A program made the translations under genes and the position numbers. 52,280 nt of DNA from an uncultured Coriobacteriaceae bacterium. GTDB lineage: Bacteria; Actinomycetota; Coriobacteriia; Coriobacteriales; Atopobiaceae. Position 1 is the first letter of the stretch; each line of letters starts with the position of its first letter. The DNA lies in NCBI GenBank assembly GCA_902773995.1, contig CACYGL010000022.1, positions 1-52,280 of the forward strand, given 5' to 3'. The notes below the pieces were generated by a model. It had not been told where the DNA came from. It saw nothing but the letters and a program-made list of their open reading frames with translations, and searched no databases. This document shows, piece by piece, positions 18,918 to 36,080 of the stretch.

Positions 18918-19778
18918 ATGAAGCAGCTCGCGTCACTCACGCGCCGCGATTTTCTCGCGTGCGCAATGGCAGCCATGGGCACGGCGGCACTCGCCGGATG
19001 TGGCTCCGCGTCGTCCTCAACGGGCACCTCTAGCACCTCTACCAGCGCATCAACAACATCAGCCTCGCAGGACACCTACACCCTGGTGAAGGATGGGCAG
19101 CTCACCATTGCCTCCGACCTCGCCAACCCGCCGCTTGACTACACCGACACCTCGTCCAACGAGCCTGCGGGCTTCGAGGTCGAGCTCATGCAGGCCATTG
19201 GCGAGAAGCTCGGCCTTGCGAGCGTGTACCTCTCGCCCATGAAGTTTGACACCATCATCCCCACCATCAAGCAGGGCGGCACGGCCGACGTGGGCGTCTC
19301 CAACTTCACCATCACCGACGAGCGCAAGCAGGAAATCGACTTCACCGACCCCTACCTTGACTCCAACCAGGGCCTTGTGACCGCAAAGACCGCCACCAAG
19401 ACCACGCAGGACGACCTCAACTCCGCAGATGTCAAGGTGGCCGTGCAGGCCGGCACCACCGGCGAGTCCTGGGTGCAGGAGAACCTCCCCAACGCCACCC
19501 TGGTCTCGCTCGATGACCCGGTCGTGGCACTCACGGGCGTCCAGTCCGGCCTCTACGACGCGGCCGTGGCCGACCTCCCCGTGGTCCAGTACCTCGTGAA
19601 CAACTCCTTCACCGACTGCCAGGTCTCCATCGAGATCCCCACGGGCGAGCAGTACGGCATCGTTGTCTCCAAGGACAACCCCGCGCTCACGAGCGCGATC
19701 AACGACGCGCTGGCTCAGCTCGACCAGGACGGCACGCTGAAGGACCTCAAGACCAAGTGGTTTGGCTCTGACCTGTAA
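18918..19778 (+). CDS. Polar amino acid ABC transporter, substrate-binding lipoprotein 1
   Basis: 286 residues. Twin-arginine-like signal (LTRRDFLACAMAAMG) ending in lipobox LAGC (Cys about residue 26), then a Ser/Thr-rich linker and a family 3 solute-binding domain: FEVELMQAIGEKLGL, DVGVSNFTITDERKQEIDFTDPYL, GTTGESWVQENLP, GEQYGIVVSKDNPAL. Binds a polar amino acid outside the membrane and delivers it to the permease. The ATG giving MKQLAS follows AGAGAGAAGAG. Closely similar to the next gene, so they arose by tandem duplication. Confidence 0.9.
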   Translation: MKQLASLTRRDFLACAMAAMGTAALAGCGSASSSTGTSSTSTSASTTSASQDTYTLVKDGQLTIASDLANPPLDYTDTSSNEPAGFEVELMQAIGEKLGLASVYLSPMKFDTIIPTIKQGGTADVGVSNFTITDERKQEIDFTDPYLDSNQGLVTAKTATKTTQDDLNSADVKVAVQAGTTGESWVQENLPNATLVSLDDPVVALTGVQSGLYDAAVADLPVVQYLVNNSFTDCQVSIEIPTGEQYGIVVSKDNPALTSAINDALAQLDQDGTLKDLKTKWFGSDL

Positions 19779-32738: not shown

Positions 32739-34991
<2,253 letters not shown>

Positions 34992-35010: not shown

Positions 35011-35195
35011 GCAGGTTGCCAAAACTCCCCCTTGGGCGTCATCTTGATGCCCAAGGGGGAGTTTCCGACAGGATTGCGTATGAATGGACAGCTCCGGCGT
35101 CATTTTGACGCCCGAAGGCACGTTCTCGCAGCTATTACGTATGAAAGTCCCTCTTGGGCGGCGTTTTCTCGCCAGAGCGCAAGTTTCTGCGGGGA
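35011..35195 (+). repeat. Three tandem ~60-bp units, first forming the ligA terminator
   Basis: Unit 1 (35011-) has a perfect 16-bp stem AAACTCCCCCTTGGGC/GCCCAAGGGGGAGTTT (35022-35064, 11-nt loop). Units 2 (35069-) and 3 (35129-) share CAG-N5-CGTATGAA and shorter hairpins (GGCGTCA/TGACGCC; GGCG/CGCC). Period 58-60 bp. Confidence 0.7.
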
Positions 35196-35349
35196 TGGCA
35201 AAAGCGCAGCTTCCTCCCTATCACACTAATTTCTTAGTATCCCACCTTGACGAGGCTTTTGCACGACTGAGTCCGTCGCGGACAATAGAGGACCGTCTGC
35301 GGCACAGGTGCGCCTCGAGGGGTTTAACGCCTCTCGGATTGGCTATAAA

Positions 35350-35775
35350 GACAGTGACTAAAGGGAGTCGCCCGGCAAGGACGACCGAGGTAGGAGGTGC
35401 ATTCCGATGGGCAGTGACGAGAGTTCAACCAAGCGCCTGCCTTTGGATGCATGAATTCACCCCTGAGGCGGTGGCAGATCCCTCGCAACGTCAAAGTCGA
35501 TACGGTGGCACCGCGAATACGCTGATTAGACAGCGACGTGAATCACAAACAGGGCAGGCGCATCTTTTTCTCCGGTCGGTGAAGAACCGACACCCCCAGA
35601 CAGGTTCCTAACACCACGAGAGGAACGGAGAACGGGTTCGCACCAAGCGAGCCATTAACGATAGCACGTGCTTATCACCTTTGTCGCATCCCGTGCGGGA
35701 GCGACCTCCCTAAGGGGGAGAGTCCAAAGTATCACGTAGGTGGGCGGGCGCTCGAAAGGGCGTCCGCCCTTTTGT
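35350..35775 (+). ncRNA. Candidate large structured RNA with loop pseudoknot
   Basis: About 420 bases without a conserved gene but with dense pairing. Seen: stem 35421-35427/35452-35458 capped by CCAA/TTGG, whose whole loop GCGCCTGCC (35433-35441) pairs perfectly with GGCAGGCGC (35553-35561); hairpins CGCTG/CAGCG, GTCGGT/ACCGAC, GTTCC/GGAAC, GGTTCGC/GCGAGCC, GTCGC-CCC/GGG-GCGAC and CTCCC/GGGAG in series; the 5' GTGACT..GG can pair with 3' CC..AGTATCAC, closing the domain. It ends in an intrinsic terminator (GGGCGGGCGC/GCGTCCGCCC, TTTT). A TATAAAG at 35344 may be the -10. A T-box-like GGTGGCACCGCG lies at 35504-35515. I do not recognise the class. Confidence 0.6.
35742..35773 (+). terminator. 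Intrinsic terminator of candidate ncRNA
   Basis: 10-bp stem GGGCGGGCGC (35742-35751) with GCGTCCGCCC (35760-35769), one G-U pair, 8-nt loop, then TTTT. Confidence 0.85.
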
Positions 35776-35836
35776 GTCTTCGATCGATGCCCGTTTTGCT
35801 CGATGCGATGCATTAAGGCCTCGGCTGGGCCATTCC

Positions 35837-36080
35837 TGCATCGAAACCTCCTTCGTTACACAAATTGCCGATCTTTTGCGCCGAACTGCCCTACTTTACA
35901 CATAGTTTTGGCATAACCCCGAGTATCAGTTACAACATATTGATAAATAAGAGCATTCAAATACCACATATAGTATACAGAGGAGCCTCGCTACTTTGTC
36001 GGACCGAAAAACCATGTGTAACGGAGGGCACTTCGGCGCAGCGAGGATCGAATTTGTGTAACGAAGGGCGGTTTGATGCA
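35837..36080. repeat. Long inverted-repeat miniature element, copy 2 (244 bp)
   Basis: Same plan as 9755-9996: arms of about 70 bp with two CGTTACAC motifs each (outer TGCATC(G/A)AA...CCTTCGTTACACAAATT, inner GCGCCGAA(C/G)TGCCC) and an AT-rich core of about 100 bp. It lies between the candidate ncRNA terminator and the ndpA-like gene. Confidence 0.8.

Follow-up and report, generated by a model that had tools for sequence, protein, structure and literature searches.

Within the window, i.e., the whole analyzed stretch of 52,280 nucleotides, a structured RNA sits between ligA, which ends at 34991, and a gene for the 37-kDa nucleoid-associated protein NA37 (Pfam). We predict from its sequence features an independent RNA gene of ~420 nt at 35356–35775 on the + strand (Table 1). 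The TATAAA of the −10 element is kept in 8/8 genus sequences and reads TATTAT in L009, a locus from another genus; because the promoter scan of the window region gave no full sigma-70 match, the element was graded as weak. The + strand between 35340 and 35776 folded with a z-score of −3.65 (0/100 shuffles as good) and, with the terminator excluded (35356–35738), with a z-score of −3.32, compared with −1.38 for the − strand. The high degree of structure described in the earlier note was thus borne out against shuffled sequence. The intrinsic terminator proposed there is present as a hairpin with a T-tract, but the terminator scan alone was not significant (2 sites in the region vs. 1.7 in shuffles); terminator-like hairpins following the 3′ element were seen by eye in many relatives.

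Table 1. Predicted features of the RNA, in window coordinates
Feature	Position	Strand	Remarks and basis
−10 element TATAAA	35344..35349	+	Probable, weak; transcription start predicted near 35356
5′ hairpin H1	35367..35385	+	Immediately upstream of the Shine–Dalgarno sequence; arm-pairing test
Shine–Dalgarno AGGAGGTG	35392..35399	+	Putative live initiation site; family consensus GGAGGNGANNCC before the start codon
sORF MGSDESSTKRLPLDA	35407..35454	+	15 codons + TGA; ATG at 35407, stop at 35452–35454; frame conservation
Long-range helix, 5′ strand	35433..35443	+	Within sORF codons 9–13; pairing test
Long-range helix, 3′ strand	35551..35561	+	Pairing test; counterpart in alignment A5 is a 12-pair helix
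Hairpin before 3′ element, GTCGC...GCGAC	35683..35705	+	Found in 8 genus sequences but not in L009
3′ initiation-like element GGGGGAGAGTCCAAAG	35714..35729	+	Shine–Dalgarno-like sequence with AAG at the start-codon place; motif counts
Predicted intrinsic terminator	35742..35773	+	12-pair hairpin + TTTT; terminator scan

A longer ORF runs across the RNA (35084–35611, 175 aa); it contains no Pfam domain, and one-base indels were seen in relatives over its region. Phage and plasmid records gave no match to the window's copy of the RNA at E 1e-5, and a mobile element was dismissed on this basis. Repeats flank the gene on both sides. Downstream, an inverted-repeat element (35837–36080) with arms of 30–33 nt that are 87–88% complementary has many partial copies in the genome and looks like a MITE-type repeat. 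Upstream, a repeat at 35091–35180, of which the genome has at least 15 further partial copies, is adjoined by a near-perfect inverted repeat (35022–35064).

Distribution of the RNA and comparison with known classes

BLASTN recovered the stretch in 9/60 genomes searched, comprising the window genome, seven other genomes of the same genus (79–98% identity), and L009, where the core matches, the neighbors are different and the order of parts is kept. A weak match in family f10 (L033) led to 17/65 f10 genomes with the RNA. Judged by eye, the predicted RNA of Collinsella-type members is shorter than in the window, at roughly 290 nt. A covariance model of the RNA's 5′ third (R1; 90 positions, 22 sequences) matched 127/396 Coriobacteriia genomes at E ≤ 0.01, i.e., 81 in f1, 37 in f10 and 9 elsewhere. 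The best of these nine reached E 5.8e-5, and the three loci inspected among them (L197, L198, and L199) were judged non-members; the weak f1 matches were inspected in part. In a phylum-wide draw, 19/396 genomes matched R1 at E ≤ 0.001, including 16 from f1 or f10 and three weak matches from outside (E 9e-5 to 7e-4). Strong matches are confined to the two families f1 and f10, which we infer to be Atopobiaceae, the family within Coriobacteriales that includes Tractidigestivibacter, and Coriobacteriaceae, respectively, the latter because the sORF of the Collinsella record L088 is identical to that of L129, an f10 genome.

From 101 R1-matched rows, 78 were used, and 66 non-redundant members remained after filtering. 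The dropped rows comprise 11 close duplicates (L006, L007, L049, L051, L061, L064, L129, L135, L140, L141, and L149), six judged non-members (L037, L156, L159, L197, L198, and L199; E 2e-6 to 1.4e-4), three extra copies (L173 at 3150 and 9773, L176 at 395), and three partial matches to the 3′ element (L171, L175, and L180). L037 carries a Shine–Dalgarno sequence and a 15-codon frame, the rest of the RNA not being seen there. Since the members were collected with a model covering the start region, the conservation seen in that region is in part a result of how they were selected; R1 does not extend to the stop codon, to the distant strand of the helix or to the 3′ element.

The window's own genome holds a second, divergent member (L200:3063-3155, contig C29) with the sORF MGSEDEIHSDLSAAANPRHARL, a 3′ element and a terminator-like hairpin; its candidate helix at the equivalent place (CTGTCTGCGG/TCGCAGGCAG) was scored equally high by 2/20 shuffles. 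L173 and L176 each carry three R1 matches, within ~11 kb and ~19 kb, respectively; some of these matches are degenerate, which suggests local duplication and decay. At L028:1500-1656, in another genus, a rubredoxin-like gene (Pfam) opens with the same SD-MGSEE module (R1, 46 bits) and is preceded by a hairpin seen by eye; here, a protein gene may have taken over the initiation site of the RNA. In L048 and L050, the RNA is followed by a gene that looks by eye like an RsmJ-type 16S rRNA methyltransferase and that was not seen after the RNA in the window.

Neighboring genes were clustered over flanks of up to ~3 kb at the 78 loci. The largest cluster comprised at most 14/78 loci and downstream clusters at most 8/78, and a conserved neighbor gene was rejected accordingly. 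We read the largest clusters as frames that run over the RNA, as reverse frames of genuine genes, or as synteny shared by one genus or family. This bears on the idea of a cis-acting leader, whether attenuator or T-box-like, of the downstream gene. The succession of Shine–Dalgarno sequence, short ORF, structures and terminator does look like a leader-peptide attenuator, and GGTGGCACCGCG at 35504–35515 presumably resembles the T-box motif. T-box riboswitches carry a conserved antiterminator motif; however, GGTGGCACCGCG, found in the 8 genus sequences, is replaced by GGTCGCATCGCG in L009, and the Rfam T-box model had no match, so that a T-box riboswitch was rejected. As the downstream genes also differ (NA37 in the window, a murC-like gene by eye after L009) and recur so rarely, we consider a cis-acting leader very improbable.

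None of the families in Rfam 15 gave a gathering-level match in the window or in the loci of 15 relatives, and the models that the earlier note had named for checking (RNase P, 6S, T-box, raiA, OLE, and ROOL) found nothing at the locus, so its suggestion of a known large class such as raiA, OLE, ROOL or T-box was not supported. A permissive search (E ≤ 10) yielded eight sub-threshold matches in the window region; sub-threshold matches there include sobemo_FSE on the terminator hairpin (E 0.51), PhotoRC-I (E 2.8), and MIR6140 on the downstream repeat (E 0.016). L20_leader overlaps the 3′ part of the RNA (35651–35781; 15.9 bits vs. a cut-off of 58.7, E 5.1). The same kind of search in five relatives' loci (E ≤ 1) gave mir-641 and mir-6134 in L183, and ncS54 in L053. 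All are far below their cut-offs and were set aside as chance, simple hairpins or unrelated models. RNase P RNA is encoded elsewhere in 5/5 genomes searched, including the window's own, and a 6S-like match occurs elsewhere in 8/8 genomes, above the cut-off in two. A tmRNA above the cut-off was found elsewhere in 3/5 genomes, the exceptions being the window's own assembly (G000), where it may simply be missing from a 90.8%-complete assembly, and G258; ARAGORN found no tmRNA in the window. We therefore rejected tmRNA, RNase P RNA and 6S RNA, which match elsewhere in the genomes and gave no covariance match at the locus, as well as Collinsella-1 (RF01700), which matched none of 15 loci and, permissively, none of 5. 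Size, structure and the L20_leader overlap are what speaks for a divergent copy of a known large RNA (raiA, OLE, ROOL, tmRNA, RNase P, 6S, or Collinsella-1). Against the search results from window and relatives, and with RNase P, tmRNA and 6S-like RNAs placed elsewhere, we regard such a copy as extremely improbable.

Among the literature titles listed on coriobacterial structured RNAs, on Olsenella or Collinsella motifs, and on dual-function or ribosome-binding RNAs, none describes the family, and a search for Collinsella-1 RNA found no paper. A prediction study reports 3161 candidate structured RNAs from human microbiomes; its main text names one Collinsella candidate, located upstream of L7/L12, and parts of the coriobacterial family may be among its supplementary candidate models (PMC8040213). 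Two RNAs covered in PMC2864571 are among the nearest comparisons. The cyanobacterial Downstream-peptide/Yfr6 RNA is likewise a conserved structured RNA by a short ORF with synonymous changes, and its conserved part is described as a 5′ UTR (PMC2864571). In our family, the conserved structure involves the ORF as well as the sequence that follows. Collinsella-1 (RF01700) is comparable as a structured RNA listed for Actinobacteria and the human gut (PMC2864571). RF01700 matches none of the loci searched.

Small open reading frame, long-range helix and 3′ initiation-like element

The earlier note had stated that no conserved ORF covers the RNA. This does not hold, as the 15-codon sORF at 35407–35454 has a strong Shine–Dalgarno sequence and is kept in frame: frame 0 ends after 15–26 codons in 65/66 members and after 32 in one. 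A stop before codon 15 occurs in frame 1 in 49/66 and in frame 2 in 23/66 members, a control that we weight less because many of these early stops are a few conserved words (GTGA and GATAG). Start codons are ATG (39), GTG (24), and ACG (3) among the 66 members, and stops are TAG (42), TAA (14), and TGA (9) among 65. ACG is a poor bacterial start codon; in a subgroup of f10 (L049, L050, L051, and L052) it replaces ATG at the sORF start and the frame is kept. The duplex of the 5′ Shine–Dalgarno sequence with the 3′ tail of 16S rRNA had a mean energy of −22.2 compared with −13.5 kcal/mol for shuffled sequence (n = 66, one shuffle each), the tail sequence having been located in 4/7 genomes searched and not in the window's own assembly.

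A long-range pairing connects the sORF with a segment further downstream. The two complementary segments described earlier, GCGCCTGCC (35433–35441) and GGCAGGCGC (35553–35561), are present in the window. Pairing was scored as the best match between sORF positions +18 to +44 and +115 to +165 in the 66 non-redundant members, with the helix pairs picked by eye before the permutation test was run. Pairing with the own partner had a mean score of 24.3, compared with 17.3 for swapped partners (sd 0.49, maximum 18.9), and none of 2000 permutations reached it; in 21/66 members the score was below 20, so that these have a weak or misplaced helix or none. Example strands are GCGCCTGCCTT/AGGGCAGGCGC in the window, GCCGGCGGG/CCCGCCGGT in L088, and GTCCTTGGATCCGC/GCGGATCCAAGGAT in L060. 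In alignment A5, for which 31 sequences were chosen and the window's genus, the GIASPV-type subfamily and L058 were left out, 94.0% of cells in the corresponding 12-pair helix are paired and seven pairs show two-sided change; sliding the columns by 1–3 lowered the paired fraction of the entire structure from 93.6% to 30–49%. The covariation check proposed for the long-range pairing thus came out in its favor. The accompanying picture of a loop-based pseudoknot was not supported: in 45 members, shuffling the flanks of the 5′ strand gave flanking stems of about the same length, and in the window the stem is CCAA/TTGG only (35429–35432 with 35443–35446). Since the further hairpins H2 and H3 lie inside the helix in A5, the helix can be represented as closing a multiloop, and a pseudoknot is required by nothing seen in the predicted fold. 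Taken with the missing Rfam match and the varying neighbors, the strong covariation of this helix supports the earlier proposal of an independent, unrecognized structured RNA.

The arms of H1 paired with a score of 14.83 vs. 12.85 after permutation (0/2000, n = 66), and 96.1% of its cells are paired in A5, with pairs that hardly vary. A pairing of the 5′ and 3′ ends, also put forward earlier, appears in the lowest-energy fold; comparative support for it is absent, and it competes with the supported H1. The hairpin preceding the 3′ element was considered as a second H1 and discarded, as its support is weak (8/2000 permutations reached its own pairing; 45 members). For the remaining hairpins, many pairs are conserved within the genus of the window with hardly any variation, and therefore count neither for nor against these hairpins.

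Close to the 3′ end of the RNA, the initiation context recurs as GGNGANUCCA-NNG, mostly 154–311 nt downstream of the start codon. The strict motif was found in 42/66 members, compared with a mean of 0.12 (maximum 2) in 50 dinucleotide shuffles. A looser motif, with G fixed at the third codon letter and T barred at the first, so that AAG, ATG and GTG are all admissible, and with the first place taken where several fitted, was found in 45/66: AAG in 34, CCG in six, and GGG, CAG, ATG, ACG and GTG in one each. The other 21/66 members lack even this motif. In the L176 copy at 19072, the element reads ATGAACAGCTAA. Its duplex with the 16S tail reached −16.0 vs. −11.3 kcal/mol for shuffled sequence (n = 42, one shuffle each). 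Both duplexes, and the retention of GGNGANUCCANNG but not AUG in the 3′ element, would fit a ribosome-binding RNA that holds or titrates 30S subunits through a live and a dead 16S-tail site, with the sORF serving mainly for loading. However, any ordinary Shine–Dalgarno sequence pairs with the 16S tail, and the 5′ element has one extra base relative to the perfect complement and C for U at one position in 25/66 members. We consider this reading distinctly unlikely.

The amino acid sequence of the sORF provides evidence for a further alternative. Third positions are the most variable in codons 2–7 (entropy 1.36 vs. 0.97 and 1.02) and not in codons 8–15. In 26 members of exactly 19 codons, which do not include the window's genus, synonymous one-base codon differences in frame 0 were 2.46-fold over expectation for codons 2–6, 1.91-fold for codons 7–12, and 1.12-fold for codons 13–19, compared with 0.38- to 1.06-fold for codons 2–12 in shifted frames, the pair counts not being independent. 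Because of the excess in codons 2–12, the first dozen amino acids are probably under selection together with the helix in this 19-codon subfamily. Such constraint, together with the conserved frame, argues for an mRNA whose product is a peptide of 15–26 residues and whose structured part is a stabilizing or regulatory 3′ region, the main rival of a translation-gated switch. Several observations count against it. Across subfamilies, the peptides share only about five N-terminal residues, largely M/V-G/N/Y-S/T-E/D-E/D, and codons 13–19 show no clear constraint; in L183, L193 and L196, the frame slips relative to nucleotides that stay alike. Moreover, the long-range helix and the 3′ element are left unexplained. 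Altogether, we judge a small-protein mRNA to be unlikely. A universally open frame is disfavored by two of the extra copies: at L173:9773 the frame is closed after 8 codons, and at L176:395 no start was recognized.

A possible ribosome-gated mode of action

We tentatively favor, at a little less than even confidence, a reading in which a ribosome translating the sORF opens the long-range helix and thereby switches the fold of an independent RNA. Codons of the sORF would pair with the segment ~100 nt downstream to form the helix. Where the helix is clear (45 members), its 5′ strand starts 18–32 nt after the first base of the start codon, and the sORF stop lies 8–31 nt beyond the end of the strand in 45/45. 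Given the ribosome footprint, a ribosome at initiation would just avoid the helix, and elongation would require unwinding it. From this spacing, initiation would leave the helix intact, elongation would open it, and a ribosome at the stop codon would already have passed the strand. As the helix would open only to an elongating ribosome and the stop lies beyond the strand, the fold would report how readily ribosomes initiate. The 3′ element would make contact with the 16S tail, or with any other reader of the 5′ site, in competition with the live site. The output would be exerted in trans, on an RNA, the ribosome or a protein partner, since downstream genes are not widely shared and the RNA is followed by a terminator-like hairpin. 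The members with a weak helix, those starting with ACG, those lacking the looser 3′ motif and the two extra copies lacking an open sORF count against the switch. A pure switch needs no selection on the peptide, so the synonymous excess in one subfamily counts against the simplest form of the ribosome-gated reading; in the subfamily that keeps the amino acids of codons 2–12, the peptide itself may have a further function.

The putative mode of action is of the dual-function or attenuator type. Dual-function sRNAs such as RNAIII-hld, SgrS-SgrT and SR1 are independent RNAs with a Shine–Dalgarno sequence and a short translated ORF, and the window RNA resembles them in its Shine–Dalgarno sequence and its conserved, translated-looking short ORF. 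Unlike in these sRNAs, the sORF codons form one strand of a covarying long-range helix, the peptides diverge across subfamilies, and a second Shine–Dalgarno-like element, mostly with AAG for AUG, lies near the 3′ end. In leader-peptide attenuators, passage of the ribosome over a short ORF decides between folds. Ribosome passage would choose the fold here as well, and a terminator-like hairpin lies downstream, whereas no downstream gene is widely shared (≤ 8/78 loci) and the output would be in trans. To our knowledge, no described RNA has both overlapping constraints on coding and structure and a duplicated initiation site. A more far-reaching version is that an RNA with a live start site and a dead copy (AAG for AUG), both fitted to the 16S tail, and with the live sORF's codons wired into a long-range helix, senses free initiating ribosomes and passes this state on in trans, which would make it a new class of ribosome-operated RNA; this we hold to be rather doubtful.

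By comparative sequence analysis, the coriobacterial RNA family is real and widespread, with constraints on coding and structure that overlap. Rfam has no entry for this large family, whose relatives occur in two families of coriobacteria. If the ribosome-gated reading is true, the RNA would sense translation initiation as a free-standing element, and what it controls could be tested directly in culturable species, e.g., Tractidigestivibacter scatoligenes.
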